Assembly: GCA_028713125.1 (NCBI GenBank)
Contig: JAQTOU010000002.1
Span: forward strand, 330,583-394,582
Direction: 5' to 3'
Source: Elusimicrobiales bacterium
GTDB lineage: Bacteria > Elusimicrobiota > Elusimicrobia > Elusimicrobiales > UBA9959
DNA length: 64,000 bases
Under the pieces are notes generated by a model, which worked only from the letters and a program-made list of their open reading frames with translations, did not search any database and was not told the origin of the DNA. How positions within the stretch are numbered: the stretch's first letter is position 1; each line of letters begins with the position of its first letter. The position numbers and the translations under genes are program-made. This document shows, piece after piece, positions 37,892 to 59,300 of the stretch.

Positions 37892-39421
37892 ATGCAAAAT
37901 AAAGCGAATAAACCTATTATCGTCCTTGCTGTGGCTTTGACCGCCTTTATCTCCGCGGGGTTCCTTCTGCTGGTGCAGATCGGGACCAGCGCCAGGAAAA
38001 ATTCCCAGACTCTTTCCGGCTTCAATTTCCGCGGCGCTCCCGCCCCCGGATCCACGGTCGTTAATGATCTCGAGCGGGGCGGGGCGGCGGTAATGAAGAA
38101 AGGGGAAGACCTTTACAGCAGCTTTTTCGGCGGTGGGGAGCAGGCCGCCTCCCCTTCGGGCCGGAGCGAGACCGCGCGGCAGGAATACGGCCGCAAAGCG
38201 GACTCCGCGGAGTCCGCGGACGCCTCCGATAATTCCGAAAGCGACGCTTTCGAGGAATACTATAAGAAAAATTATTCCTCCCAGCGCGGTAAGACCGCGG
38301 AAAGCGGGCCGGCTTCCTGGGCGAGCATGGGCGGCGGCGGGTCGGTCTCCGGCGGGGGCTCCGACGTCGGTTCCGGCGAGGCTCCGGCGCAGGAGGGCTA
38401 CCGTAAAGTTTCCAAGAAAGGGGAGGCGGATAAATCAGCCTCTTCCGAGCCGGGTTCTTCTCCAGGCGCCGTGCCGGGCGGGCCTTCCGCGGGCGCGGCC
38501 CCGGGGCTACAGGCCTCCCTCCCCTGGAAAAAAAACTCGGGCGACTCCAGGCTGGATTTCGGCAGGCAGCCCGCCCTCGAGGGGGCTAAATCCGATAAGC
38601 AGGCCTATAAAGGCGGAAACCTGTCCGGGATGGCGGGCCAGAAGGCCGCCGCTTCCCTCGACGGCGCCGCGGAGGGCATGAAGGCCGGGGCTCAAAGCAA
38701 TTATAATTCAAAGATGTCCGGGGATGCGGCCTCAGCGGGGGGCTCCGCTTCCGGGGGCGGGTCTTCTTCGGGCGGCGGCTCCTCTCCTTCCGGGAAAGCC
38801 TCTCCCGCCGCTTCGACGCCCGCCGCGGTTTCCGCGGCCGACGCGGCCAAAGCCAGCTCAGGCACCGCGACCGAAGCCGCCGTGGACTCTTATGAGGGAG
38901 AATATACCCGGCCCAAGGCTGAAGACCAGGACCTTTTCGCTTCCGTGGTAACTGAAAAGCAGAACGGGCTTGACGGCAAGTTCATCCTGTCCGAGGAGGC
39001 CGCGGACGATCCCGAAGAGTCGCAGCTGAAGGCCCGCACCGTAGCCGAAAGCGCCGCCACCAAAGAAACCGCGGCGCCGGATCCGGCGAATTTGAATAAT
39101 TTATCGGAAACGCGCAAGACGGAACTGAAGAGGGATATCCATACCTTCATGAAAAAAGTGGAGAACAGGTACGGAAAAATGACCGACATCCAGCGCATCT
39201 CCTGCGCGACGACCCCCGAGATCTGCAAGGATCATGAAGTGACGGGAAGCTATATGACCATGGCGACGAAAGACGGCGCGAAGCTCAACCTGGGCGTAAA
39301 GTATATCGATAAAAGGTGGCGGCGCTATACCATGGACTTCAAGGCGCCGCCCGGCTCGGCCAAGCCGGCGAAGCCGCCCGCCGAAGAAGAGTTCGTGGAC
39401 GAAGAGGTCCTGGCGGAATAG
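37892..39421 (+). CDS. Protein A: anchored low-complexity envelope protein, unrecognised
   Basis: 509 residues from the ATG at 37892, which has gaggg seven bases upstream. A short basic tail leads into one transmembrane segment (~9-30), so the N-terminus should be inside and the rest outside. Residues ~60-390 are extremely rich in Ser, Gly, Ala and Pro (SASGGGSSSGGGSSPSG and similar) and look disordered. The last ~100 residues appear folded: a helix KTELKRDIHTFMKKVENRYGKM, then a two-cysteine segment SCATTPEICKDHEV and a beta-rich stretch ending in an acidic tail. No family recognised. Same build as proteins B-G further on; first of that group in the window. Confidence 0.88.
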   Translation: MQNKANKPIIVLAVALTAFISAGFLLLVQIGTSARKNSQTLSGFNFRGAPAPGSTVVNDLERGGAAVMKKGEDLYSSFFGGGEQAASPSGRSETARQEYGRKADSAESADASDNSESDAFEEYYKKNYSSQRGKTAESGPASWASMGGGGSVSGGGSDVGSGEAPAQEGYRKVSKKGEADKSASSEPGSSPGAVPGGPSAGAAPGLQASLPWKKNSGDSRLDFGRQPALEGAKSDKQAYKGGNLSGMAGQKAAASLDGAAEGMKAGAQSNYNSKMSGDAASAGGSASGGGSSSGGGSSPSGKASPAASTPAAVSAADAAKASSGTATEAAVDSYEGEYTRPKAEDQDLFASVVTEKQNGLDGKFILSEEAADDPEESQLKARTVAESAATKETAAPDPANLNNLSETRKTELKRDIHTFMKKVENRYGKMTDIQRISCATTPEICKDHEVTGSYMTMATKDGAKLNLGVKYIDKRWRRYTMDFKAPPGSAKPAKPPAEEEFVDEEVLAE

Positions 39422-39519
39422 AGGCCGCCCCGCGCCGCCTGGCCGTTTGGCGGGCATAGCTCTTGTTGCGGCACAGTCATAGCCTTGCCCGGGCTCGCAT
39501 AATAATCAATAATTTATAA

Positions 39520-40890
39520 ATGCGGGACACCATACATTTTTCAGGCATCGGCGGGGTCGGCATGAGCGCGCTGGCGCAGGTGGCGGCCATGGAAGGGCGC
39601 CCTGTCAGCGGCTCCGACAGGGATTTCGACCGCGGGCGCAATCTCGGCGTGAAAACCGCGCTGGAGAAGCTGGGTATAAAGATCTATCCGCAGGACGGGT
39701 CCGGCATAAACGCCGCCACTTGCGAACTGGCCCTCTCCACCGCCATCGAAGACACCAACCCCGAGGTCGTCAAAGCGAAAGAGCTGGGGCTTAAAATAAG
39801 CCACCGCTCGGAGCTCCTCGCCGCCCAGGTCAACCGTTTCGAGACCATAGCCGTAGCCGGGACCAGCGGGAAATCCACCGCGGCCGCCATGCTTTTCTCC
39901 GTCCTTGAGGCCGGGGGGCTCGGGCCTTCCATAATAACCGGCGGCGCGCTGGGCGTCCTTAAGGAGCGCGGCCTCATCGGAAACGCTTTCCGCGGCAGCG
40001 GCAATATCCTCGTGGTGGAAGCCGACGAGTCCGACGGGACCATAGTGCGCTACAAACCTAAGACCGGCCTGCTTCTAAATATCAGCAAAGACCACAAGGA
40101 CCTCGAAGAGCTCAATAAAATTTTCAGCGAGTTCGCCGGCAACTGCGGCCGCCTGCTGGTGAACGCCGACGACGCTCCCTCGGCCGCGCTGCTGCCCGCC
40201 GCGGAAAAATTCGGCTTCGGCTCCGGCGCCTGGCGGGTCACGGAGATCAGGGCCGGGCTTTTCTCCTCCGAATTCAAAATAAACGGCGTCGGGTTCAGCC
40301 TGCCCGCGCCGGGGCTTTACAATATAGAGAACGCGCTGGCCGCCTGCGCCGCCGCTTCGGTCTACGGCGTCAGTCTGGAGGCCGCCGCCGCCGGGCTTAA
40401 AAATTTCCGCGGCGTAGAGCGCCGCTTCGTCCTGGTGGGCGAAAAGAACGGCGTGACCGTGATAGACGACTACGCCCATAACCCGGCCAAGATCTCCGCG
40501 CTTCTCAAAGCCCTGCACCAGGCGCCCGGCAGGCGGCTGCTGGCCGTTTACCAGCCGCACGGCTTTACGCCCACCCGCCACCTTAAAGCCGAGCTGATAG
40601 AAAGTTTCGCCTCGGGCCTGAACGCGGAGGACGTCCTCCTCATGCCCGAGATCTATTATGCCGGCGGAACCGCGAACAAGAATATTTCCTCCAAAGATAT
40701 CTCCGACGCGGTGGCCGCGAGCGGCCGCAACGCTGTCTATTATGAGAACCGCGCCGACATCCCCGCCGCCGTTTCCAAGCTGGCCAGGCCGGGGGATATA
40801 GTCGCCGTGATGGGCGCGCGCGACGCCACGCTCGCGGCTTTCGCCGCCGAGGTCCTGCAAGCCCTGCCGGGCCCTGTGCCCGTTCCCTAG
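39520..40890 (+). CDS. murC: UDP-N-acetylmuramate-L-alanine ligase
   Basis: 456 residues. The N-terminal Rossmann motif is IHFSGIGGVGMSALA, the ATP loop AVAGTSGKSTAAAML, and the central ligase block GVERRFV...VIDDYAHNPAKI. All are typical of MurC (Mpl would be the main alternative). The enzyme adds L-Ala to UDP-MurNAc in peptidoglycan synthesis. No other mur gene is adjacent, which is unusual since murC normally sits in the dcw cluster. No Shine-Dalgarno is visible: the sequence before the ATG is AT-rich (aataatttataa), so initiation may be leaderless. Confidence 0.85.
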   Translation: MRDTIHFSGIGGVGMSALAQVAAMEGRPVSGSDRDFDRGRNLGVKTALEKLGIKIYPQDGSGINAATCELALSTAIEDTNPEVVKAKELGLKISHRSELLAAQVNRFETIAVAGTSGKSTAAAMLFSVLEAGGLGPSIITGGALGVLKERGLIGNAFRGSGNILVVEADESDGTIVRYKPKTGLLLNISKDHKDLEELNKIFSEFAGNCGRLLVNADDAPSAALLPAAEKFGFGSGAWRVTEIRAGLFSSEFKINGVGFSLPAPGLYNIENALAACAAASVYGVSLEAAAAGLKNFRGVERRFVLVGEKNGVTVIDDYAHNPAKISALLKALHQAPGRRLLAVYQPHGFTPTRHLKAELIESFASGLNAEDVLLMPEIYYAGGTANKNISSKDISDAVAASGRNAVYYENRADIPAAVSKLARPGDIVAVMGARDATLAAFAAEVLQALPGPVPVP

Positions 40891-40895
40891 CTGTT

Positions 40896-41074
40896 ATGGC
40901 CAAAGTCACGGTAATGAACTATACCACCCTCAGGAAAAGCCCGGTGATCTCTATTCCAGGCGGCATTTCGTGATGACGCTGAACCCGGAAATATTGGATA
41001 ATAAAAAGACCGCTTCGGTGCCGGTGAAGGACGGAGACATCCAGCACGTTTTCCCGCCGGTATCCGGCGGCTGA
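40896..41074 (+). pseudogene. Remnant of a MoaD/ThiS-like sulfur-carrier gene
   Basis: The ATG at 40896 opens a frame beginning MAKVTVMNYTTLRK, like the first strand of MoaD, which stops at 40974. In the -1 frame, reached across the AAAA run at 40935-40938, the sequence continues to 41074 and ends VPVKDGDIQHVFPPVSGG. That is the classic C-terminus of MoaD-like ubiquitin-fold carriers with the reactive Gly-Gly. Joined, the two parts give only about 59 residues against ~80, so an internal stretch is missing too. A decayed gene is the simplest reading; a sequencing error alone would not explain the short length. Confidence 0.55.
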
Positions 41075-41087
41075 CCAAGGAGAAAAT

Positions 41088-42266
41088 ATGAAACCAGTCA
41101 AGATAACCGACGGAGTATACTCGCTGCGCCTGAACCATTTCAACCGGCACTTATTCGACTCTCTTATCCCGCTGCCGGACGGAACCAGCTATAATGCCTA
41201 CCTGGTCAAGGGGTCCGAAAAAACGGCGCTGATAGACCCGGGCGAGCCTGAAAAGGCGGAAATGATCCTGGATTATCTCAAGGACGAGAAAAAAATAGAC
41301 TATGTGATCTCGCATCATGCCGAGCAGGACCATTCGGGGAACATCCCGCTGGTGCTGGCGCGCCACCCGGAAGCAAAAGTGGTGACCAATCCGAAGTGCA
41401 AAGAGCTGCTGATGACGCACCTGCACATCCCGGCGGATAAATTCATCGAGGTGAAGGACGGGGAGACGCTTTCGCTGGGGGGGAAGACCCTGGAATTCGT
41501 TTATATGCCGTGGGTGCACTGGCCCGAGACGATGGGGACTTACCTGCGCGAGGATAAATGCCTTTTCTCCTGCGACTTTTTCGGTTCGCATATCGCAAGC
41601 AACGCCCTCTTTTCGGAGGAGCACCGCTCTTACGAGCCCATGAAGCGCTATTACGCGGAGATCATGATGCCGTTCCGCTCCAATATAAAGACGCACCTGG
41701 AGCGGCTTTCGAAATACGAGATCTCTTTTATCGCCCCCAGCCACGGGCAGGTGCACAATAACTCCAAATTCGTCATGGATATGTACAGGGACTGGGTCCT
41801 GAGCGAGCCGCGCAGCAAAGTGCTGGTGGCTTATATCTCGATGCACGGCAGCACTTTGCTTATGGTGAACCGCCTCGTCAGCCGCCTGCAGGAGGCGGGT
41901 ATCTGCGTGGAAAAACTGAACCTGGAGCAGTTCGACGAAGGCCGCGTGGCGATGGCGCTCGTCGACGCCGCCACCATAGTCATCGGAACGCCGACCGTCC
42001 TTACGGGCCCGCACCCCAAGACAGTTTACGCCGCTTACCTGGCGAACCTGCTGCGCCCCAAGGCCAAATTCGTTTCCGTCATCGGTTCCTTCGGCTGGGG
42101 CGGGCGGGCCGTGGAAACCATAGCCGGCCTTATTCCTAATATAAAGGCCGAGGTTCTGAAGCCTGTTATAGTCAAGGGGATGCCCACCGAGGCGGACCTT
42201 AAACAGGTGGACGAGCTGGCGGCCATGATAGTCGAAAAGCACAGCGGCCTGGCCCTCTGCGCCTAG
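41088..42266 (+). CDS. Flavodiiron protein (A-type flavoprotein)
   Basis: 392 residues. The N-terminal metallo-beta-lactamase-like domain carries the diiron ligands: H-x-E-x-D-H in HHAEQDHSGN, His in WVHWPE, Asp in CDFFGSH and His in PSHGQVH. The C-terminal flavodoxin domain begins LVAYISMHGSTLLMVNRLV. Such proteins reduce O2 to water or NO to N2O in anaerobes, taking electrons from rubredoxin or similar donors. Good ribosome site aaggag. Everything needed for activity is present. No electron donor gene is adjacent. Confidence 0.95.
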   Translation: MKPVKITDGVYSLRLNHFNRHLFDSLIPLPDGTSYNAYLVKGSEKTALIDPGEPEKAEMILDYLKDEKKIDYVISHHAEQDHSGNIPLVLARHPEAKVVTNPKCKELLMTHLHIPADKFIEVKDGETLSLGGKTLEFVYMPWVHWPETMGTYLREDKCLFSCDFFGSHIASNALFSEEHRSYEPMKRYYAEIMMPFRSNIKTHLERLSKYEISFIAPSHGQVHNNSKFVMDMYRDWVLSEPRSKVLVAYISMHGSTLLMVNRLVSRLQEAGICVEKLNLEQFDEGRVAMALVDAATIVIGTPTVLTGPHPKTVYAAYLANLLRPKAKFVSVIGSFGWGGRAVETIAGLIPNIKAEVLKPVIVKGMPTEADLKQVDELAAMIVEKHSGLALCA

Positions 42267-42279
42267 GCTGGCCTGGGCC

Positions 42280-42308
42280 TTGAAATTTCCCGTTTCGTCT
42301 GCTAGACT
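42280..42308 (+). promoter_or_regulatory. Sigma70 promoter of protein B gene
   Basis: TTGAAA (42280-42285) and TAGACT (42303-42308) are exactly 17 bases apart. It is followed by a leader hairpin (42321-42366) and the protein B start at 42399. Confidence 0.7.
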
Positions 42309-42320
42309 CTAAAAGACGGA

Positions 42321-42366
42321 ACCTGCTTTTTCAGTTTCCCCTGCACGGGGAAGGGTGAAAAACAGG
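42321..42366 (+). promoter_or_regulatory. Leader hairpin before protein B
   Basis: A long RNA stem can form: outer cctg-tttttca / tgaaaaa-cagg and inner ttcccc/ggggaa. The outer CCTG...CAGG pairing also occurs in the leaders of the protein C and protein F genes. Confidence 0.5.
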
Positions 42367-42398
42367 CATGCATCTTTTCTGGTTACAGGGGGCGGTTT

Positions 42399-43613
42399 AT
42401 GCAGGACAATTCAAGAGATAAAAAAAAGACCCTTGTAGTTTCGGTGCTCGCTTTCCTTTTTATCGGCGGGGGTGTTTTTCTCTTCTTCATAATACAGGGC
42501 TCTAACGACCTGACAGGCAAGGGCAAGAGCAGCTTTACCTACGGCGCCGCCGCCAGGGAAGGGGTCTCTTCTTTCTTCAAGAGCATAGGCGTGGTCCCGG
42601 ACGAAGAGGCCATCCGCGAGATCAGGAAAGACGGCATATTGGCCGCCTATGGATTTATGCCGGACGGCAAAACCGCCGGCGACTTATCCGATTGGATGGC
42701 GAAAGATGGCGCGGCCTCCCCGGCCCAGGCGCCGGGCGGTTCCGCGGCCAGACCGTCAGCGGTGCCTAATATGTCCAAGGCTTCCATGTCCCAGCCGGGC
42801 GGCGGCGGGGGCAGCTCTCAATCCTCCGGCTCCTCCTCAAGGTTCGGCGGCGGCGACAATTCCCGCGCCACCTCCGTTTCGGCTTCCGCTAAGACCGCGG
42901 GTACCGGCGCCGCCGGAAAGGGCACGCTGGGCGCGCTTAAGAACGCGCGCGCCATGCTCGGCGAGGGCCTCAGGTCCGATTCCGCCATGACGGCGCGCAG
43001 CAAGTGGGGGCAGAGCTTCGGCGTCGGAGGGAGCGGCGGAAAGTCCGGAGAGCTCGCCTATAATAAATCCGGCCTGGTCGGGCTGGATAAGATCAAGAGC
43101 GGCGAGATCGCCAGTTTGAAGATGGATAAAAAAGGCGCCGGACTCGCGCCCGAGGCGGGGGCTTTCGAGCGCGACAAGAACGCCGAGAGCAAGGACGCGA
43201 ATCTGCAGGCCAAGAACGCAGAGAGCAAAGCGAACATGGAGAACGAGGCTAAAAAAGCCGCCGCCCAGGCTGCTCTTGACGGGCTTGGTAAAGGGCTGAA
43301 TAGCAGCACCCCCAAAGACCCTACAGGCGATGGTAAAGCTACTCCGCCGGGCGCGCCTATCACCGAAGAAGAAAATGCCTTAGCGAAGACCCTTACGACC
43401 GGCACGCAGTCCCTTAGCGACGGCAGCACGTTCGCGAATTCAACCGTTGTCGTCAGCAGAAATCCTGACGGCGGGGCCACTTTCAACATAACGGGCGCGG
43501 TAACACCTGCCCCGGGTTCGACAGAGCCTCCGGCCGGTTATACCTTCACCGTGTCCAAGAACCCTGACGGAACAGTGACAGCGGGCGAGTTCGTATGGAA
43601 AACTGCCCCTTGA
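42399..43613 (+). CDS. Protein B: anchored low-complexity envelope protein, unrecognised
   Basis: 404 residues. A charged tail (MQDNSRDKKK) and one transmembrane segment (~11-33) give an N-in anchor. A short conserved-looking stretch follows (SSFFKSIGVVPDEEAIREIRKDGILAAYGF), then Gly/Ser/Ala-rich sequence with a more structured middle (LGALKNARAMLGEGLRSDSAMTARSKWGQSF). An Ala/Lys/Glu-rich helical part (~255-300) precedes a C-terminal beta-like segment of about 70 residues (SDGSTFANSTVVVSRNPDGGATFNITGAV). Matches the overall build of proteins A and C-G. No family recognised. Its stop codon overlaps the -35 box of the protein C promoter. Confidence 0.88.
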   Translation: MQDNSRDKKKTLVVSVLAFLFIGGGVFLFFIIQGSNDLTGKGKSSFTYGAAAREGVSSFFKSIGVVPDEEAIREIRKDGILAAYGFMPDGKTAGDLSDWMAKDGAASPAQAPGGSAARPSAVPNMSKASMSQPGGGGGSSQSSGSSSRFGGGDNSRATSVSASAKTAGTGAAGKGTLGALKNARAMLGEGLRSDSAMTARSKWGQSFGVGGSGGKSGELAYNKSGLVGLDKIKSGEIASLKMDKKGAGLAPEAGAFERDKNAESKDANLQAKNAESKANMENEAKKAAAQAALDGLGKGLNSSTPKDPTGDGKATPPGAPITEEENALAKTLTTGTQSLSDGSTFANSTVVVSRNPDGGATFNITGAVTPAPGSTEPPAGYTFTVSKNPDGTVTAGEFVWKTAP

Positions 43614-43638
43614 CAAGTCAACTTTTGTCTGGTATAAC
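43610..43638 (+). promoter_or_regulatory. Sigma70 promoter of the protein C-D-E operon
   Basis: Consensus TTGACA (43610-43615), 17-base spacer and TATAAC (43633-43638). The first spacer bases agtcaa and the downstream leader closely match the promoter before protein F at 49307. Confidence 0.85.
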
Positions 43639-43660
43639 ATCACTGTAAAATCAACTTTGA

Positions 43661-43687
43661 CCTGAACGTCCCGGGGACTGTGTCAGG
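43661..43687 (+). promoter_or_regulatory. Leader hairpin before protein C
   Basis: cctga...tcagg pairs around an inner gtcccggggac palindrome. The flanking words cctgaac and tgtgtcagg recur at the same distance from the promoter in the protein F leader (49355-49383). Confidence 0.55.
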
Positions 43688-43740
43688 AAAAGTTTAAAGT
43701 TATTTTGCGGCAAACGAGGTCGGGTCTAACAGGCGGAGTT

Positions 43741-44685
43741 ATGATAAAAATACAGGCTAAAAAGAACAAGTCAAAGCAATACGTTATAGGCGGTACTGTA
43801 GCCGTCATCGTGCTTGGGCTCTGGATCTCGCTTCCGCTCATGAACGGTTCCTCGCTGGACTCTTCCTCTTCGTCCGCGAATCCCTATGGCTCCAGGGCGG
43901 CCAACCTGTCCCTGCTGGGGAGCGAGTTCTCCGGTGAGGGCGGCGCCCCCGGCTCCCCGATGAGCGGCGCGATGATAGACAATCCCGCTACTTCGGGCGA
44001 GGATATCGCCTCTTCCCTTTTTCAGTCGGGCCCGGGCGAGGAAGCTCCCGCCGAAGCCACGGCTGACGCGTCGGCGTCCGCTCCCGCCGTTTCCGGTTCC
44101 GGTTCCGGTTCGGGCTCTGGCTCGGCCGGCGCCCCTTCGGCTTCAGGCCCCAAGGGCAAGCTCAGCGCCGCGGCTTCTATCACCGGAGGCAATGCCAACT
44201 CGATGTCTTCCGGCGGCAAGCACGACAAATTCTTCGGCTCCGGAAATCAGAAATCCGATTTCGCCCCGGCCGCGCCCGCCGACCTTAAGAAAATGGCCGG
44301 CCAGGACAAGAGAAGCGGGCTGGTGGCCATGCTGGGCAATAGCGCCGAGAAGAGCAGCCTTGCGGCCAAGTCGGGCAATGTGGACGGGGCCAAGGGCGGC
44401 GCTTCCTCGGCTTTCGCCAATACGGTAAAGGGTACCGGCGGCACGGATCTTAACAGCGACCTTGAAAACAAGAGCATAGGGGCCGGCCTGCAGATGGGCC
44501 AGACCGCCCAGGACCTCAAAAAGAGCGATCCCAGCCTGAGCAAGACCAAGATCACCCCGCCTTCAAAACCGGAGGATGTCACCGACAAAGACGAAGAGAT
44601 GAAGAACCAGATAAAGATGATGATAATAAAGATGGTTCTGCAGATGGCGCTCGGCGCGGTGTTCCAGGGGATGGTCCCCGCCTAA
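43741..44685 (+). CDS. Protein C: anchored low-complexity envelope protein, unrecognised
   Basis: 314 residues from the ATG at 43741, which has ggcggag upstream; an earlier in-frame ATG at 43705 lacks one and lies in the leader. A Lys-rich tail (IKIQAKKNKSKQ) is followed by a transmembrane segment (~14-34) and Ser/Gly/Ala-rich sequence including an (SG)n run near 120. A partly ordered region SGLVAMLGNSAEKSSLAAKSGNVDGAKGGASSAFANT comes next. The motif DPSL..TKITPPSKPEDV is shared with protein D. It ends in a hydrophobic, Met-rich helix (~285-314) that could enter the membrane. First gene of the C-D-E operon; D follows after 25 bases. Confidence 0.88.
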   Translation: MIKIQAKKNKSKQYVIGGTVAVIVLGLWISLPLMNGSSLDSSSSSANPYGSRAANLSLLGSEFSGEGGAPGSPMSGAMIDNPATSGEDIASSLFQSGPGEEAPAEATADASASAPAVSGSGSGSGSGSAGAPSASGPKGKLSAAASITGGNANSMSSGGKHDKFFGSGNQKSDFAPAAPADLKKMAGQDKRSGLVAMLGNSAEKSSLAAKSGNVDGAKGGASSAFANTVKGTGGTDLNSDLENKSIGAGLQMGQTAQDLKKSDPSLSKTKITPPSKPEDVTDKDEEMKNQIKMMIIKMVLQMALGAVFQGMVPA

Positions 44686-44710
44686 TTTCAGACTTTACCG
44701 GGAGGAGTTT

Positions 44711-46216
44711 ATGAACAACTATAATGAGAAAGAAGAAAAGAAAGGCGGGTTCGGCGCCGCGCTTTCGGGGCTTTTCAGGGGAGGCTCCTCGGTAGCGGGC
44801 AGCGCCTCCTCCGGGATGGGTTCGGCCGGCGGCGGCCTGGCCGGTCTCTTCGCGACCAAGGCCGGCATAGTAGGCATGGTCCTGGGCGGCGCCACCATAG
44901 CCGCCGGCGTCGGGGTGATCTACAACTTCATCGGGCCCTCGTCTAAGCCAGTATATTCCCCTGAGCTCTTCCAGAACAGCTACTACGAGGAAGAATCCTC
45001 GAAGGCCGGGCTTGAGAGGACCAATTCGCGCGACGCCTCCGCGGCGGCTTCCTCTACGCTTGATATGTTCAAGGAGCAGGCTAAAAAAGACGGCTTAGGC
45101 GGCCTGGCGGCGGAAGCCGGCGACGGCTCTAACGCTTCATCAGAAGTCCCGGCGGCTCCCGCGGACGCTTCCGCGGATTCGGCGGCGGCCGCTCCCGGAG
45201 CTGAAGGCGGCGCGGCCGGCGGGTCGGGCGGCGGCATGCCCAAGATGCAGGCTTCATCCGGCTTCGGAAGCAAGGGCGGCGGCGCGGGAGGGGGAGGCAG
45301 CAGCTCTTCCATTCCCAGGATGCAGTCCGGCGGCGGGCTCAGCGGCGGGATAGGCGCGCAGTTCGGGTCGGTCTACAGGCCGCCGGCGCAGGCCAACGGC
45401 GGCAAGACTTCGGCCATGACCGCTTCGGCCGCGAGGGTAAAAAGCTCTCCGAAGTACGCGATCCCCAATGTCAATAAAAAAGGCGCATACGGCCAGGCCA
45501 AGTTCGCTGGCAAAATGGGCAATAAGGCGGCTTTCTCCGCCGACGCTTCCGGCTCGCGCACCGAGGCTACGAACGCTTTTTCAGGCGAGACCACGGGCGC
45601 TGGCGACGTGGGCGCCCCTGCCTCGGGCGCGGGCCTGGGCGGAGCCGGGGTTTCTAACGGAGCGGGTCTTAAAGGCAATGACCCGAGCCTGAACAGCAAT
45701 GAATCCACCCCCCCGAAGGTTCCTACTCCCGAGGACGTGGACCCCTGGCAGAAAGAGGAAGACGCCGCCATGAACGGCATGATGTGGGCGGCCGGGCTTA
45801 TACTTGTCACCAAGCTCCTCGGCAAGCTGGCCAAAACCGTGCCTTTCGTATATTACATCGCCGTGGCTACGGCTCTTGCGGCAATAGGATTTGCCCTCAA
45901 GGTGGTGATGGCCGGCTTCAAGATGTACAGTGAGTTCGGCCAGAAGATGATGGGCGGTATATACATCGTTACCGGCCTGATGCTTGCATACCAGGCTTGG
46001 GAAGCTCTGTGCGGCCTGGAGCAGGGCGCGGATGCGGACACCAGCAAGAGTTTAAATGATCAAAAAGGCGCGGACGGCAAAGCCTTGGGTAATGGCAAGC
46101 CTGGTGACACTCGCTCTATCACCAACAATGGCAATACTACGAACTACACCGGGGACGGGAAGGGCGGTTGGTCCAGCAAACCTATGGGCGACATGAGCAT
46201 GGGGAAATTGTTTTAA
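44711..46216 (+). CDS. Protein D: polytopic low-complexity envelope protein, unrecognised
   Basis: 501 residues; strong ggaggag site. The cytoplasmic tail starts MNNYNEKEEKKGG, like proteins E and G. First membrane segment ~51-73, then the motif TLDMFK at 116-121 (shared with E) and a long Gly/Ser/Ala-rich external part with IPRMQS at 201-206 (shared with G). A DPSL...TPPKVPTPEDV motif is shared with C. About 355-440 holds two or three more membrane segments, with GQKMMGGIYIVTG matching GQTMMGGIYVLGG in E. A polar Gly/Asn tail follows. Probably a paralogue of E. No family recognised. Confidence 0.9.
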   Translation: MNNYNEKEEKKGGFGAALSGLFRGGSSVAGSASSGMGSAGGGLAGLFATKAGIVGMVLGGATIAAGVGVIYNFIGPSSKPVYSPELFQNSYYEEESSKAGLERTNSRDASAAASSTLDMFKEQAKKDGLGGLAAEAGDGSNASSEVPAAPADASADSAAAAPGAEGGAAGGSGGGMPKMQASSGFGSKGGGAGGGGSSSSIPRMQSGGGLSGGIGAQFGSVYRPPAQANGGKTSAMTASAARVKSSPKYAIPNVNKKGAYGQAKFAGKMGNKAAFSADASGSRTEATNAFSGETTGAGDVGAPASGAGLGGAGVSNGAGLKGNDPSLNSNESTPPKVPTPEDVDPWQKEEDAAMNGMMWAAGLILVTKLLGKLAKTVPFVYYIAVATALAAIGFALKVVMAGFKMYSEFGQKMMGGIYIVTGLMLAYQAWEALCGLEQGADADTSKSLNDQKGADGKALGNGKPGDTRSITNNGNTTNYTGDGKGGWSSKPMGDMSMGKLF

Positions 46217-46246
46217 ACTTGCGGGCGGGCGGTTCTTGGAGGTTTT

Positions 46247-47737
46247 ATGAACGACAATCTGCCGGAAATAAACTTTAAGGAAAAGAAGGAAAAAAAGGGC
46301 GGCGCGCTCGGCTGGCTCAGGGGCCGGCTGGGCATGGGCACCCGCGGCGCTATGGGCGAGGCCGGGCTAAGTCCCTCGGCCATGAACGTGGGCAGGGCCC
46401 TCGGAACCGCCAAGTTCGGCGCTTCCTCCGGCGGGCTCATGGGGCTGCTGGCCGGCAAACTCGGCCTGATAGCGACCATTGCCGCGGTGGCCGTGGCTAG
46501 CGGGCTTTATGTCGCAAATAACGCTCCCGCGCCGAGCACCAGTACGGGCGCTTTCAGTTCCGACAGCGGCAAGAATTATGTGCCCGCTATATTAAGGAGC
46601 CAGGCCGCCAACCAGGGGTCCTCCCTTGATATGTTCAAGGACACCAACAAGGGCACCGGCCTGTCTATGGACGCCGACGCCGCAAAGGCCGCCGCTGACA
46701 AAGCCGCGGCAGATAAGGCCGCCGCCGCGAAGGCCGCCGAAGCGGACGCCACCGCGCAGAACCCGGAACAGCCCGCCGCCGATCAGGGGAACGGCGCCGG
46801 CGATATGATGGGCAAACTGCAGGGCGGCTCCATGGGGTCCCTTACCAGTTCTCTCGGCGGAGGCTCCAGCAAGTTCTCCGGCGCGGGCGGCTTCAACAAT
46901 AAATTCAACCAGGGATCGATGGGCGCGAAAACAGGCTTCAGTTCCGGCATAGGCGCCGGCTTCTCCGGCATGCCCAAGTTCGATTCCCGCAAGGGCAAGA
47001 TGCTGGCCATGAAGGGCTCGGCCCGCCCCGTATTCTCCGGCGCAAAGGGCGGAAAGGGCGGAACGTACGGCCCTAAGTCCTTAAACCAGGCCAAGGGCCT
47101 GAAGGCCATGCAGAAAACTTATTCCGGCACGAACGTGGACTCTGCGCGCTCCACCCAGGATAAAGCCTGGACCGGCGCGACCGCCGAAGGCGACGTGGGC
47201 GCCGGCGGGGCCGGCCTTGGCGACGGCGGCGCGGGCGTGATGACTTCTCCCTCGCTGGATAACGGCGGGGCCAGCGGCGGCGGCGGCGGCACCGGTGCCG
47301 CGGCAGAGCCTCTCGTGCCCGATGCGAATCCCCCGTCCGATGACAGCCCCTGGAAAGGAATGCCCGAAAAAGCCATGGGGCTTATCCTGATGTCGTGTAT
47401 GCTGACCGTGGCCGGCGCCGCGCTTATAAAGGCGTCAAATGCCGCTACCGTTGCCGTAGGCGTTGCGGGCGGCGTTATGCGTATCATGGGTATGATACTT
47501 TGCGGTATCGCCGCGGTTCTCGCTGCGGCGGCCCTCGTGATCGGTATACAGCTAATGGCCAGCCATGGACAAACGATGATGGGCGGCATATACGTTCTGG
47601 GCGGCGGACTTGCCGCGGCCGGGGCGATAATGGGCATGCTGGGCGAACCCGGTACGGCTTTGACCGCTAATGCTCAGATGCTGCTTGCAGCCGCCGCTTT
47701 GGGATCTTTGTTCGGCGGCATGATGGGCGGGAAGTAA
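46247..47737 (+). CDS. Protein E: polytopic low-complexity envelope protein, unrecognised
   Basis: 496 residues; ggagg site. The tail is MNDNLPEINFKEKKEKKGG. First membrane segment ~65-90, SLDMFK at 127-132, then an Ala/Lys/Asp helix (AAKAAADKAAADKAAAAKAA) reminiscent of TolA. A Gly-rich external part contains FNNKFNQGSMGAKTGFSSG and the GDVGAGGAGLG stretch also seen in D. The C-terminal ~125 residues carry about four membrane segments and the GQTMMGGIYVLGG motif. It ends GGMMGGK. Last gene of the C-D-E operon, followed by a hairpin at 47759-47782. Function unknown. Confidence 0.9.
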   Translation: MNDNLPEINFKEKKEKKGGALGWLRGRLGMGTRGAMGEAGLSPSAMNVGRALGTAKFGASSGGLMGLLAGKLGLIATIAAVAVASGLYVANNAPAPSTSTGAFSSDSGKNYVPAILRSQAANQGSSLDMFKDTNKGTGLSMDADAAKAAADKAAADKAAAAKAAEADATAQNPEQPAADQGNGAGDMMGKLQGGSMGSLTSSLGGGSSKFSGAGGFNNKFNQGSMGAKTGFSSGIGAGFSGMPKFDSRKGKMLAMKGSARPVFSGAKGGKGGTYGPKSLNQAKGLKAMQKTYSGTNVDSARSTQDKAWTGATAEGDVGAGGAGLGDGGAGVMTSPSLDNGGASGGGGGTGAAAEPLVPDANPPSDDSPWKGMPEKAMGLILMSCMLTVAGAALIKASNAATVAVGVAGGVMRIMGMILCGIAAVLAAAALVIGIQLMASHGQTMMGGIYVLGGGLAAAGAIMGMLGEPGTALTANAQMLLAAAALGSLFGGMMGGK

Positions 47738-47758
47738 ACTCTCTTCAGCCTTGTTCAT

Positions 47759-47782
47759 CCCACCACCTGCCCGGGTGGTGGG
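47759..47782 (+). terminator. Hairpin after the C-D-E operon
   Basis: A perfect 9-bp stem cccaccacc/ggtggtggg stands 21 bases after the protein E stop. There is no T run after it, so it may be a weak or Rho-assisted terminator, or may only stabilise the 3' end. Confidence 0.5.
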
Positions 47783-47840
47783 TCCGGGTCCGCGGTGTTT
47801 CCCTGATATCGCTTCCCTGTGTTTCCAATAAGCTAGTTCC

Positions 47841-49208
47841 ATGAAAATAGCCCTGATCAACCCGCCTTTCCCTCCGCCGCCTTTATGGATACTCCTTGCA
47901 ACAAGAAGTTACAATTACCCTCTGGGCCTGGCTTACCTGGCGGCTTATGTGCGGCGGGCCGGCCATAAAGTCAAATTATTCGATCCTGAACCCCTCCGGA
48001 TGACTACGGAGCAGATGTGGAAGGAAGTGGCGGAATTCGGGCCTGACCTTGTCGGCATCACTTCGGTAACCCCTAATTTCCCGGCGGCCCGCGAGCTGGC
48101 CCTTGAAGCTAAGAAACGCTTTGACTGTCTAGTGGTCATGGGCGGGCCGCATCCTAACGCGCTTCCGCGTTCGACTTTGCTCGGCGTGCCCGGCCTTGAC
48201 GCCGTGATACTCGGCGAGGGGGAGATCCCCCTGGCGGCCCTCGCTGCCGAGTTCGACTCCGCAGGGAAAGTCGATTTCAATAAAATACCCGGGGCCGCTT
48301 TCCTGGAGGCCTGGAAATACAAGGAGACCGCCCGCCCCGAGCTGATAGCCGACCTGGATACCCTCCCCTCCCCGGCGCGGGACCTGGCGGACATGCGCTT
48401 GTATTATCCGAACCGCTGGTTTTTCGGCGGTAAAAAAAGCACTACGCTCCTTTCCAGCCGGGGCTGCCCGGGGCAGTGCACGTTCTGCGCCAATATCTGC
48501 ATGGGCCGGAAATTCCGCCCGAACAGCCCGGAATATGTCGTAGCGGAGATGGCCGACCTGGTGAAGAAATACGGCCTCAGGCATTTCAAGATCTATGACG
48601 ACTGTTTTACGGCGAACGCGGGCCGGGCCGCGGCGATCTGCGACCTTCTCATCGGGGCGAAACTGAATATTACCTGGGAAATAATGGGCCGCGTTAATAC
48701 GCTGCTGGACGAGGCCCTGATAGTGAAAATGAAGCGGGCCGGCTGCAGGCACATTATCCTGGGGATCGAGACCGGCAGCCAGCGCATACTTAACCTTATG
48801 AAAAAAGGGACCACGCTCGCCATGGCCGAGGAATGCTGCTCCAAGCTGCGCAAGCACGGGATCCCTTATTCCAACTCGTTCATAATCGGCAATGACGGCG
48901 ACACGGAGGAAACCATCCTCGAGACTATCGCCTTCGCTAAAAAATTAAAATCCGGCGTCGCCGCATTCGTGGTTATGATGCCGTTCCCCGGAACGCCGCT
49001 GTTCGATAAATATTTCAAGGATTACGATAAGCCCGAGACGGATTGGACCAACTGGTGTTCTATGGTGGAGGAGCGGCCGTATGAGCCGAGGCAGACAAAC
49101 CTCTCGATGAAAGACCTTATGCGCTTAAAGATAAAAGCTGACAGCAGTTTTTACAATAGCCCCTCCCAGGTCTGGCGCGGCCTGGTGTCTACTATTAAAC
49201 AGGGCTGA
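47841..49208 (+). CDS. B12-binding radical SAM protein
   Basis: 455 residues. A B12-binding-like Rossmann domain (~1-150: INPPFPPPP, GPDLVGITSVTPNFPAA, VVMGGPHPNALP, GEGE) is followed by a radical SAM core with the cluster cysteines in SSRGCPGQCTFCANICMG (C-x3-C-x2-C) and GIETGSQRILNLMKKG. This class covers methylases, methylthiotransferases and ring-forming enzymes acting on small molecules, lipids or proteins. The substrate is unknown. It sits between the C-D-E operon and protein F, with no clear ribosome site. A role in modifying the anchored proteins is conceivable but unsupported beyond position. Confidence 0.9.
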   Translation: MKIALINPPFPPPPLWILLATRSYNYPLGLAYLAAYVRRAGHKVKLFDPEPLRMTTEQMWKEVAEFGPDLVGITSVTPNFPAARELALEAKKRFDCLVVMGGPHPNALPRSTLLGVPGLDAVILGEGEIPLAALAAEFDSAGKVDFNKIPGAAFLEAWKYKETARPELIADLDTLPSPARDLADMRLYYPNRWFFGGKKSTTLLSSRGCPGQCTFCANICMGRKFRPNSPEYVVAEMADLVKKYGLRHFKIYDDCFTANAGRAAAICDLLIGAKLNITWEIMGRVNTLLDEALIVKMKRAGCRHIILGIETGSQRILNLMKKGTTLAMAEECCSKLRKHGIPYSNSFIIGNDGDTEETILETIAFAKKLKSGVAAFVVMMPFPGTPLFDKYFKDYDKPETDWTNWCSMVEERPYEPRQTNLSMKDLMRLKIKADSSFYNSPSQVWRGLVSTIKQG

Positions 49209-49306
49209 TTTCCATGGCCGATAGGGAAGAGTTCGCCCGGTCGGTCGCGCCGGAGGCAGGGTTCAAACTATGATCAGTTCAATGTCCCGCCGTGCAGTTG
49301 CGCCCC

Positions 49307-49335
49307 TTGACAAGTCAAGCATTTTCTATTACAAT
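49307..49335 (+). promoter_or_regulatory. Sigma70 promoter of protein F gene
   Basis: TTGACA (49307-49312), 17-base spacer starting agtcaa, and TACAAT (49330-49335). It is near-identical in layout to the C-D-E promoter. The protein F start is about 165 bases downstream, leaving a long leader. Confidence 0.8.
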
Positions 49336-49354
49336 ATAGATATCAATTGCTTTG

Positions 49355-49383
49355 CCCTGAACTTATTCAATATTGTGTCAGGG
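49355..49383 (+). promoter_or_regulatory. Leader hairpin before protein F
   Basis: ccctga (49355-49360) pairs with tcaggg (49378-49383) around a caatattg palindrome. The words ccctgaac and tgtgtcagg match the protein C leader although the loop differs, which suggests the pairing itself is conserved. Confidence 0.55.
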
Positions 49384-49500
49384 GAGGTTTAGGTTCTTTT
49401 TATAATATGATGCAGGGGGGCGGCGCGGGTTTCGCCTTAAAGCCCGACGTTAAAACTGCATTATCAGAAGTTCCGGACAGGGGTTGGATAGGGAGGGTAT

Positions 49501-51051
49501 ATGGGCAGCAAATTCGTAGAAAAACATAAACGCAAATCGGTTCTGGCCGCCCTGATGTTCCTTTTCAACGGCAGGCTCAAGTACGTGAGCATAATGCTGG
49601 TTGTCCTTATGCTTTCCGTGCCTTTCGTCATCTCCGGCGAAACTCTTGGCAGGATCATAGAACTGCGCCCTGTAGCCGCCTTCCTTAGGACGGTGGGCCT
49701 CGGCAGCATGGTTTCGGTCATGAACCCCAAATACTCCAACGACATGCTCCGCGCCGCCCTTGACAAAGCGGCGGAGGACAGCGCGCAGAACTCCTTCTGG
49801 GCTAAGTTCCTCAAGAGCATAAACGCCACTTTGCCCCCCGGCGGCGGGCCGGACTCGCTGGCCATGCTGCGCGGGAGCAAGGATGAGATCTTTGGCCCGC
49901 TCCAGCTCAATGAGGGGAAGGACGGCAAGCGCGGGCCCGGCCAGGTCAAAGGCGCGGTTAACGACGAGGAAAGGGAGCGCGGCGAGACCGGCGACGACGT
50001 AAATCTCGAGGGCCTTCTGGCCGGCGGGCCCGGCGGCCCCGGCGGGGCGGGCGGTCCCGGCGGCGAAGGCAGCGGCCTTTACGGGGACCTGATGGGCCAG
50101 AATATGTCAGGCAATTTCGGCGGCGGCGGAGCTGGTTCGGGCTCGGGGCCCTATATAGACCGCAGCAAAATGGGCGCCGGCGGCGCCGGAAGTCGCGGCT
50201 CGGGCATGTACGGCAATGTGATGGGGCAGTCGGCCAGCAAAGTCCCGGTGCCCGGTTCTCCCTCCAAGGTAAATACCAAGAAAATGGGCCGCGTCTCAGG
50301 CTTCTCCTGGAAGAACGTGGGCTACAAGACCAGCAATGCAAAGATGAACGTCCAGATGAGCTCGAAGAAGCCGATGTTCCAGCTGGCCCAGACCTTCGCT
50401 ATGACGGACGCGGCTTTCCGGTCCAAGGATTCCGCTTACGAGTACCAGGCGGCTTACGTAGGGACCACATACGACGGCAACGACTCCAACCTGGACGTGA
50501 TACAGACCGACTCCGCCTCGCCCGTTGTCCCGGACACCTCTTATACCGGCGACGTCATGACCAATGCTACGGGCCTGCAGAACGAGGCCCTGAAATGCTC
50601 ACAGGCGCAGGGCACTCATGGGGCCGCGATGTCCAGCGACGGCAAGCAGATGGAAGAGATCGGAAAGTCGATGGGCTCGCCCCCTTCCTGCTGCAGCAGC
50701 AGAGTGGGCGCCTGGAACAGCAAGATAGACCGGGTGCTAGCGCTTTGCCATGACTTTAACATGCACGAGGCGCAGTTGTCCGCCGCCTGCCAGAGCGCCA
50801 GCAGCCCAATGACTTGCGGTTACGGCAAGTATAAAATAAGCCCCTGTTCCTGGCTGAGGTGCTTCCTGGCCTTCCTGCTGATGCTTCTGTTCTCATTTAT
50901 CCTGTTGCCTCTTGCCGTGCTTTCCGCCGCGTTCGGCGGGGATTTTATGGGGCCTTTCAAGTTCGTCTTCAGCGCGGTAACCGGTCAGAAACCCATGTCG
51001 ATAGATCCGCAGGATGCGGCGGACCTCGCGAAGATCCAGAAGCTAAAGTAG
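49501..51051 (+). CDS. Protein F: anchored envelope protein with Cys-rich C-terminus, unrecognised
   Basis: 516 residues; gggaggg site before the ATG. A basic tail (KFVEKHKRKS) and a membrane segment (~28-46) precede a region that looks folded (MNPKYSNDMLRAALDKAAEDS). A Gly/Pro-rich collagen-like run (GGPGGPGGAGGPGGEG, ~175-192) follows, with two near-repeats GSGLYGDLMGQN and GSGMYGNVMGQS. After a Met/Lys-rich middle (SSKKPMFQLAQTFAMTDAAF) comes a cysteine-rich stretch (seven Cys from PPSCCSS to SWLRCF). A second membrane segment lies at ~456-482, with a short tail. Same class as A-E and G. No family recognised. Confidence 0.9.
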   Translation: MGSKFVEKHKRKSVLAALMFLFNGRLKYVSIMLVVLMLSVPFVISGETLGRIIELRPVAAFLRTVGLGSMVSVMNPKYSNDMLRAALDKAAEDSAQNSFWAKFLKSINATLPPGGGPDSLAMLRGSKDEIFGPLQLNEGKDGKRGPGQVKGAVNDEERERGETGDDVNLEGLLAGGPGGPGGAGGPGGEGSGLYGDLMGQNMSGNFGGGGAGSGSGPYIDRSKMGAGGAGSRGSGMYGNVMGQSASKVPVPGSPSKVNTKKMGRVSGFSWKNVGYKTSNAKMNVQMSSKKPMFQLAQTFAMTDAAFRSKDSAYEYQAAYVGTTYDGNDSNLDVIQTDSASPVVPDTSYTGDVMTNATGLQNEALKCSQAQGTHGAAMSSDGKQMEEIGKSMGSPPSCCSSRVGAWNSKIDRVLALCHDFNMHEAQLSAACQSASSPMTCGYGKYKISPCSWLRCFLAFLLMLLFSFILLPLAVLSAAFGGDFMGPFKFVFSAVTGQKPMSIDPQDAADLAKIQKLK

Positions 51052-55279
<4,228 letters not shown>

Positions 55280-55310
55280 ATAGCAGCGGTACAGTTTTTT
55301 GGAGGTAAAA

Positions 55311-56264
55311 GTGAAAGTTTTCAATAGCGTTTTTGCGGGACTTATAGGTTGCGTTCTTGCCGCGGGTGCCTTTCCGCCCGCGGCCGCGGCCCAGGTCAAA
55401 ACGGCCGGGCCTGAATACCTGGGACAGATACAAAAGTACGAGAAGGGCGAGCGCGGCGTCGCTTTTGACGTCGGGCTGGCCTTTTATCACGGTATCTCCG
55501 GCGCCCCTCTTAATTACCAGAAGGCGCAGGAATGGTTCGCGAAAGCGGCCGGGAACGGCGACATCTACGCGGCCGTAAAACTGGCGGATATGTACATTTC
55601 CGGCCAGGGGATACCCATAAGCAAGGCGGAAGCCCTGAAATGGTACCGGAAAGCGGCCGAGGCCGGTAACCCGGAGGCCCAGGAAAAGCTCGGGGACATG
55701 TACTATAGCGGAGAAGCCGGGAAGCGCGATCACTCCGAGGCCGCCAAGTGGTACCGGAAAGCTTCCGAACAAGAATTGACGCCGGGACCTTTTGCCAAGC
55801 TCGGACGGATCTATTTGATCGCTGACGGCGTGAAAGTGGATTACCCCGAGGCCTTGAAGTGCTACCTTAAGGCCGACGAACTGGGAGATAAAACAGCCGC
55901 GGGCTATATCGCCGATATCTATAAAGCCGATATAGGCGTAAAAAAAGACCTTTCCAAGTCTTACGAGTGGTTAGTGAAGGGCTCTCTTAAGGGTGAGCCT
56001 ATGGCGATGAACAAACTGGCCGAAGCTTATTTCTCAGGAGAAGGCGTTGGCAGGAACTATGTTGAAGCCTATAAATGGCTGGCAGTAGTCACCGCGAAGG
56101 TAAATAACCCTTCAGCCGAGCTTCTGCTGGCGCAGGTCACCAAGAAGCTTAGTGCCGGAGAACTTGCCAGTGCGAAAAAGCAGGCTTCAGCGCTGGTAAA
56201 TAAATATGTGACAACTAACGACCGGGAACAAAAAGCGTACGAAAAAACTCTTAAGGGCAAATAA
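55311..56264 (+). CDS. Sel1-repeat secreted protein
   Basis: 317 residues from the GTG at 55311, which has ggagg six bases upstream. A Sec signal is present (VFAGLIGCVLAAGAFPPAAAA). LIGC could act as a lipobox, so lipoprotein or soluble periplasmic protein are both possible. The mature part consists of about six Sel1-like (SLR) repeats, such as AAVKLADMYISGQGIPISKAEALKWYRKAAEAGN and SYEWLVKGSLKGEPMAMNKLAEAYFSGEG. These form a helical solenoid for protein binding. It directly follows protein G and ends at a strong terminator, so the pair is probably one unit and this protein may bind G. Confidence 0.9.
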   Translation: MKVFNSVFAGLIGCVLAAGAFPPAAAAQVKTAGPEYLGQIQKYEKGERGVAFDVGLAFYHGISGAPLNYQKAQEWFAKAAGNGDIYAAVKLADMYISGQGIPISKAEALKWYRKAAEAGNPEAQEKLGDMYYSGEAGKRDHSEAAKWYRKASEQELTPGPFAKLGRIYLIADGVKVDYPEALKCYLKADELGDKTAAGYIADIYKADIGVKKDLSKSYEWLVKGSLKGEPMAMNKLAEAYFSGEGVGRNYVEAYKWLAVVTAKVNNPSAELLLAQVTKKLSAGELASAKKQASALVNKYVTTNDREQKAYEKTLKGK

Positions 56265-58442: not shown

Positions 58443-59300
58443 ATGAAAAAACTTATTATTGCGGTGACGATGCTGGCGGGGCTGGGGCTCAACGCGGCGG
58501 CTTATTTTGACGGCGGGGTGACCGGGATCAGCGGCCCGCACGGCTATAGCGGAACCAAGCTGGACCTGGTAATAGGTTCCGGCAACCTTGCGATAGAGCC
58601 CTCTCTGGCCAGCTACAAGTCGAACGCGATCGACACCACGCGCGTCTACGGCCTGCGCGGCGCCTGGGAAGCCGAGAAGTACACCATCGCCGGCCTGGTC
58701 GGCACGACCCCCGAGGTCAACGGCTATTCCAACAGCTTTTTCGGCGGCGACGTAACCTTCTCCCTTACCCCCGGCTCCGGCGGCCATTCCCGCCTTGCCG
58801 GGCCCGGTTCCCGCGGCGGCGCGCGCAGCGGCGAGGGCGTGACCCGCATCGACGTCGGCGCGGGCTTCAAGCAGACCATGCACACCCAGACCCGGGCCGT
58901 CGGTTCCGACCTGAAAACCTCGCAGAGCGAAGGCTCACTGTTCGCCGGGGCTAAAGTCCTGATGCTGAACGTTTCCGCCTCCTATACCGGCTACAAGTAC
59001 GGCGACGACAATGCGACCCCTGTAGGCTTCGTTCCCGGCCTCAGCTTCGCCCTGGGGGCCTTCCCCAAGTCCAGCGTTAATTTCAAAGTGGACCTGCCTT
59101 CCACCCTCCCGATGCTTACGCCTTTCGTGTCCTATACCGGCACGAAATACAAGTTCGGCACTAAGGACAGCTCCGCCTACCTGTTCGGCGCCTACATCGA
59201 CCTGAGCATGGTGACGGCCAATGTCAGCTACCAGATCTTCGACAGCGGCGCTTCCAAAAACGACAATTTCATGTCGATCGGCGCCGGAGTTAAGTTCTAA
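58443..59300 (+). CDS. Small outer-membrane beta-barrel-like protein
   Basis: 285 residues with a signal peptide (MKKLIIAVTMLAGLGLNAAA, cut before YFDGG). The rest alternates polar and hydrophobic residues in strands such as YTIAGLVGTTPEVNGYSNSFFGGDVTF, SEGSLFAGAKVLMLNVSASYTGYKYG and VTANVSYQIFDSGASKNDNFMSIGAGVKF. It ends in a Phe, the usual last residue of outer-membrane barrels. About 10-12 strands could fit. A Gly/Arg/Ser-rich loop lies near residues 115-140. Specific function unknown. It is followed by a long palindromic element. Confidence 0.85.
   Translation: MKKLIIAVTMLAGLGLNAAAYFDGGVTGISGPHGYSGTKLDLVIGSGNLAIEPSLASYKSNAIDTTRVYGLRGAWEAEKYTIAGLVGTTPEVNGYSNSFFGGDVTFSLTPGSGGHSRLAGPGSRGGARSGEGVTRIDVGAGFKQTMHTQTRAVGSDLKTSQSEGSLFAGAKVLMLNVSASYTGYKYGDDNATPVGFVPGLSFALGAFPKSSVNFKVDLPSTLPMLTPFVSYTGTKYKFGTKDSSAYLFGAYIDLSMVTANVSYQIFDSGASKNDNFMSIGAGVKF

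Follow-up and report, generated by a model that had tools for sequence, protein, structure and literature searches.

We analyzed a stretch of 64,000 nucleotides (hereafter the window) from an Elusimicrobiales bacterium (GenBank assembly GCA_028713125.1, contig JAQTOU010000002.1, positions 330,583 to 394,582), which is part of a 3.48 Mb genome in 39 contigs. The study concerns seven genes for proteins A to G, which an original prediction had regarded as components of one envelope assembly. Comparison with relatives suggests that six of them, B to G, probably encode accessory subunits of a Tad pilus. All seven exist as open reading frames at the positions listed below, and they are real genes, since related protein sequences are conserved from genus to genus.

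37892..39421, + strand: protein A, anchored, low-complexity, with a C-terminal domain; found at the genus level only
42399..43613, + strand: protein B, with an anchor, a conserved module at residues 170-275, and a variable C-terminus; syntenic in the family
43741..44685, + strand: protein C, with a short tail, an anchor, a conserved motif, and a hydrophobic C-terminal helix; syntenic in the family
44711..46216, + strand: protein D, with a K-rich tail, a Gly-rich anchor, a long linker, and a C-terminal bundle of three long helices
46247..47737, + strand: protein E, a D paralogue with C-terminal membrane helices
47841..49208, + strand: B12-binding radical-SAM gene (Pfam), a variable insert between E and F
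49501..51051, + strand: protein F, with an anchor, the SGFSWKNVGY motif, a conserved Cys-rich segment, and C-terminal hydrophobic segments
51608..52642, + strand: constant platform of protein G (residues 1-345), with a tail, an anchor, and a strict motif
52643..55279, + strand: hypervariable cassette of protein G (residues 346-1223), with a coiled coil, a Ser/Pro/Thr stalk, and a Cys-containing, beta-rich end
55299..56264, + strand: Sel1-repeat protein with a signal peptide (Pfam Sel1, 2e-37), in a variable slot directly after G
58443..59300, + strand: protein of about 285 amino acids (aa) with a signal peptide and a putatively beta-barrel-like sequence, conserved near G

Architecture of the anchored proteins

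As had been predicted, searches of Pfam, NCBIfam, PHROGs, and PADLOC returned nothing informative for A-G, and a PDB sequence search with the D and G profiles found no credible match. Weak matches of G to IgA-binding proteins, SMC, and DndD reflected repeats or coiled coils and were rejected as its identity. The common plan proposed for the seven proteins holds in its first half, in which a single N-terminal membrane segment follows a mostly basic tail and leads into a Gly/Ser/Ala-rich stretch. The distinct C-terminal modules of that plan, however, are variable in D, E, and G, and column conservation in the alignments places the conserved part of these proteins in the tail, the anchor, and the low-complexity stretch with its defined motifs. 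Because these motifs are strict, the low-complexity stretch in D, E, and G is not a featureless linker. Strict motifs were found in C ('APGSPMSGxMIDNPATSGED'), D ('LDMFxEQAKKDG'), and E ('VPAILRSQ...SLDMFKDTNKG'), and the strict features of F are 'SGFSWKNVGY' and the Cys-rich segment.

Hydropathy and the basic tails suggest that the anchors of B-G are oriented with the N-terminus inside and the remainder in the periplasm. By reading, the N-termini of B-G contain no G/A followed by xxxxE before the hydrophobic helix, which agrees with the predicted lack of a prepilin motif. A short 'IPxLK + Lys-rich' element is common to the tails of D, E, and G in related families and therefore suggests a single cytoplasmic partner. 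In the structural model of D, the three C-terminal helices reach a predicted local distance difference test score (pLDDT) of about 90, and the remainder is mostly of low confidence and disordered save short helices; the model is consistent with a protein that is membrane-embedded at both ends, which a long loop in the periplasm would connect. Foldseek returned only generic helical bundles for this model (best E 0.13). A VirB2/TrbC-like pilin had been suspected by eye in the C-terminal helices of D and E, and this candidate was dropped since it had no Pfam match and Foldseek gave only generic bundles.

The gaps between C, D, and E are 25 and 30 bp, so the proposed three-gene operon fits. The promoters and leaders thought to be shared were not recovered: the upstream regions have at most 10-11-mers in common, and promoter-like sites are few.

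Conservation, paralogy, and exchange in protein G

Gene order was compared in the neighbourhoods of 39 relatives, which were centred on F and searched with the window proteins. Below, L-numbers denote individual loci (L168 and L169 are from contig C35 of the window genome), f1 is the family of the window, and other f-numbers are other families. Wherever the contig was long enough, B, C, D, E, F, and G kept their order in nearly every genus sampled in the family. Including the window, orthologues numbered 32 for B, 36 for C, 36 for D, 37 for E, 40 for F, 40 for G, and 10 for A, the counts for F and G being high by construction because the neighbourhoods were fetched around F. Homologues of F occurred in 54 of 121 genomes, representing most of f1 and, weakly, two genomes of a second family. 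The C profile matched families f1, f2, f9, and f13-f15. A profile of G residues 1-345, run against 341 genomes of the phylum, matched 120, all within the class of the window (f1, f2, f9, and f12-f15), and the named G relatives in an all-bacteria collection were all Elusimicrobia/Elusimicrobiota.

The original prediction held that the idea of a system would fail if the genes were not found together elsewhere. Recurrence in order, within f1 and also in other families of the class, upholds that idea for the six genes B-G and not for A and Sel1. A homologue of A adjoins mpl in nine of the 39 relatives' loci, all within the genus. The Sel1 gene, which had been counted as part of the assembly, is not a conserved partner; it was detected in one of the 39 loci with the window proteins, and outside the window it lies 3' of G in L099 and L058 but is absent from this position in most loci.

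Profile-profile comparison linked D with E (E = 1e-47), C with D (2e-9), B with C (9e-6), B with G (1e-5), and C with E (2e-5). Since these scores are all well above those of controls whose profile columns were shuffled locally with composition kept, the profiles indicate that B, C, D, E, and G are one diversified paralogous family. F and A are at most candidate members: F is linked weakly (D-F 1e-3), and the A-B match (hhalign 6e-4) covers only the N-terminal 59 residues.

Protein G combines a constant front with an exchanged rear. Its nearest relative is that of L099; between the two, identity is 94% over residues 1-345 and 30% over residues 346-1223, the latter close to the 26% mean over all pairs in the genus. 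At the DNA level, identity of mostly 87-98% (with one 72% stretch) extends to about codon 360, where it drops sharply to about 40%. The same contrast was found in the pairs L041/L043 and L036/L065, with 92% in the front versus 26% and 24% in the rear, and the pair L032/L033 retains the same cassette (93% and 81%). The terminal 230 residues form several types that cross genera, and the cassette types do not follow phylogeny; the type of the window is also present in L099, L045, L050, L052, and L058. A variable secreted protein is often encoded in the slot 3' of G (Sel1 in the window), and this downstream gene is not consistently linked to the cassette type. In addition, two segments of other proteins, B residues 276-404 and the D tail beyond about residue 434, did not align with the proteins of the nearest relative. 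A tandem duplication of G was observed in one f2 genome (L060:1709-6737), and up to four copies per genome in f14 (G184: L150, L151).

Tad genes in the window genome and its relatives

Contig C35 of the window genome carries genes for two Flp-like pilins, TadE, RcpC, a secretin, a TadZ-TadA fusion, TadB, and TadC, then those for a histidine kinase (HK), response regulators (RRs), TadG, TadE, an FtsH-like protein, and an anchored protein that we call X. According to Pfam, the TadA ATPase joins T2SSE (1.2e-62) to an N-terminal MinD-like (CbiA) TadZ-type domain in one protein of 739 aa (L168:14861-17080), TadB and TadC are T2SSF proteins encoded by two adjoining genes, and secretin (5.9e-42), RcpC/CpaB (2e-14), and TadE (1.9e-9) are also present. 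The secretin next to the TadZ-TadA fusion is unusually short (240 aa). The Flp-like pilins were identified by reading, one being a protein of 63 aa, 'RKGQNTVEYLLMLAVVV' (RKGQNTVEYLLML), and the second containing 'KGQTTIEYLL'; the Pfam Flp_Fap model gave no match. X has 497 aa and is related to B (hhalign 6e-5, with shuffles far lower), and it lies 3' of TadE, with the FtsH-like gene where that was detected, in five further loci of f1.

In distant families, homologues of C-D-E-F-G are located 3' of genes for a TadE-like pseudopilin, a TadG-like protein, and an FtsH-like AAA/M41 protease. One contig of genome G233 (L146/L173) encodes the end of CpaF, TadB, TadC, further genes, an HK, RRs, TadG, TadE, an FtsH-like protein, C, D/E-like proteins, F, and G. 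A bridging locus in f9 (L186) reads RR-TadG-TadE-FtsH-X(B-like)-C-D contiguously on a single strand, and its C and D match the window proteins at 4e-28 and 5e-25. TadG-TadE-FtsH adjoins the same anchored family in L155, L162, L164, L172, L174, and L175, and in L159-L161 and L171, HK-RR-RR-TadG-TadE is followed by anchored proteins and a G-type (G-sized) gene. Genes of the B-G family stand beside TadG-TadE in about ten loci besides L186 and L173/L146, and adjacency to Tad genes was seen in f2, f9, f14, and f15. Strong TadE matches were confined to f1, f2, and f9-f15, matches elsewhere being 2e-5 or weaker; every family with G has strong TadE, and no family has G without it. Inside the Tad operon, the gene for the FtsH-like AAA+M41 protease separates TadE from the genes of the anchored family in L169 (11788-13590), L146, L155, L162, L164, L172-L175, and L186.

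The likeness to the Tad/Flp pilus lies in the components of the window genome (TadZ-TadA, TadB, TadC, RcpC/CpaB, secretin, TadE, a TadG-like protein, and Flp-like pilins) and in the contiguity of B-G homologues with Tad genes in related families. We know of no described tad locus that includes the B-G family or an operon-encoded FtsH-like M41 protease. Tad loci divided into two are uncommon.

A probable accessory layer of the Tad pilus and its alternatives

Taken together, we consider it likely that B-G are lineage-specific, inner-membrane-anchored accessory subunits of the Tad (type IVc) pilus of the class Elusimicrobia, that their ancestral operon was split in the family of the window, and that G is an exchangeable contact module. 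The link of B-G to Tad is well supported by comparative evidence, namely gene order, the paralogy of B, C, D, E, and G, contiguity in other families, and co-distribution with TadE. One ancestral operon, broken between X and C in f1, would be the simplest history.

In the proposed mechanism, each protein would be anchored in the inner membrane, and its K-rich tail would extend into the cytoplasm. There, the IPxLK-type motif may dock on a shared partner, for which the platform, TadZ-TadA, and the FtsH-like protease are candidates. The extended Gly/Ser/Ala part would cross the periplasm around the pilus channel, and D and E would re-enter the membrane via their C-terminal helix bundle. B-G could form a layer of the Tad machine that crosses the periplasm, and the FtsH-like protease of the operon would carry out its assembly or quality control. 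The exchangeable C-terminal module of G might set the contacts or cargo of the machine, similar to the minor-pilin tips of other Tad pili, and its cassette may be under diversifying exchange because it is predicted to meet the outside.

Several observations weigh against this interpretation. In f1 itself, the Tad half and the B-G half are unlinked, and the link to Tad therefore rests on the relatives and on X. B-G have no pilin signature. TadE occurs without detectable C or G in f10, f11, and the genome of L170, so the accessory set is either dispensable where this TadE occurs or diverged beyond detection; in the L170 genome (1,643,562 bp), HK-RR-RR-TadG-TadE is kept and C and G were undetected, and the accessory half seems to be lost or unrecognizable. 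Moreover, mean confidence is low in the AlphaFold2 models of D and of the G C-terminus (52 and 61), and Foldseek gave no significant match for the latter (pLDDT 61).

The nearest functional parallel, by analogy, is the Kil pilus of Myxococcus. Its Tad core is divided between two gene clusters, which also encode many unknown proteins; its exchangeable tips, of which a genome has several sets, are minor pilins that resemble TadE/F/G and carry a prepilin site; and it is associated with a needleless type III secretion system and FHA proteins (PMC8460266, PMC12075869). The two systems resemble each other in the split over two clusters, in a diversified C-terminal module that may meet the outside, and in the several tip sets, comparable to the several G copies in f14. 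Unlike the Kil tips, G is not pilin-like and carries a cytoplasmic tail of 50-75 aa.

This parallel raises the alternative, which we regard as unlikely, that G acts as a polymorphic effector, which Tad would deliver or display upon contact as a Kil-like weapon, with the variable secreted gene after G encoding an immunity protein or chaperone and B-F forming a loading platform. A Tad apparatus does kill prey in Myxococcus (PMC8460266, PMC12075869), G has the constant N-terminus and sharply exchanged C-terminus of polymorphic toxins of the contact-dependent inhibition and Rhs types, and the f14 genomes hold up to four copies. Like the gene after such toxins, the gene 3' of G is variable, and it often encodes a signal peptide; it is Sel1 in three of the six loci with the cassette type of the window. 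However, the same cassette type occurs without Sel1 in L045, L050, and L052, and the downstream gene is not consistently tied to the cassette type. Searches of Pfam, NCBIfam, and Foldseek found no toxin domain in G, nor was a trafficking domain recognized, and the cassette is very large (about 500-1000 aa). The usual toxin tips are far smaller.

It is improbable that B-G are an independent trans-envelope assembly for adhesion or a surface layer that merely lies beside Tad genes in some lineages. Their locus is separate in f1, and no Tad gene was recognized in the examined part of the window, yet Tad adjacency is repeated in f2, f9, f14, and f15, a homologue of B (X) is encoded at the Tad locus, and the two sets are co-distributed at the family level. 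The one trans-envelope assembly of the original prediction is therefore retained for B-G, but not as a stand-alone system, and A and Sel1 lie outside the conserved set. Least probable, and already disfavoured, are TonB/TolA-like energy transducers coupling an inner-membrane motor to the outer membrane, which share the plan of a short tail, one anchor, and a long extended periplasmic part (E also has a weak compositional tolA_full match) but are argued against by the lack of TonB or TolA C-terminal domain matches in Pfam, by the fact that no ExbB/ExbD-like gene was seen beside the cluster, and by the membrane helices at the ends of D and E.

Extending the preferred interpretation of B-G as Tad accessory subunits, we tentatively raise the possibility of a new class of Tad system, in which non-pilin anchored paralogues would form a trans-periplasmic apparatus and the polymorphic G a contact or effector module, giving the Elusimicrobiota a contact-dependent weapon or a specific adhesion system. 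Part of the survey of Denise et al. (2019) records Tad systems in Elusimicrobia and, within that part, makes no mention of an accessory anchored family (PMC6668835). In a limited literature search, we found no earlier account of the anchored family, of the FtsH-like protease that accompanies it, or of the polymorphic G.

Most knowledge of Tad pili comes from a small number of model bacteria, and their specialization for different contacts is a current question. A largely uncultivated group appears to have expanded the Tad operon by a non-pilin anchored family and a dedicated membrane protease. The swapping of the presumed outer part of G between close relatives may help to reveal what Elusimicrobiota touch or attack, and the findings on B-G provide a context for genes in dozens of genomes that had no assigned function.

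Regarding the neighbouring genes, a radical-SAM gene was found in the E-F interval in three of the 39 loci and is probably outside the system. A conserved gene starting 'MKKSDYLKDTVKHIEI..', deoxyhypusine-synthase-like by eye, lies downstream of G in L039, L040, L045-L050, and others; the MKKSDYLKDTVKHIEI gene was not noticed 3' of G in the window. The protein encoded at 58443-59300 had no match in Pfam. Similar genes sit between G and dnaX in many relatives, and from its sequence, this protein is a possible outer-membrane partner.

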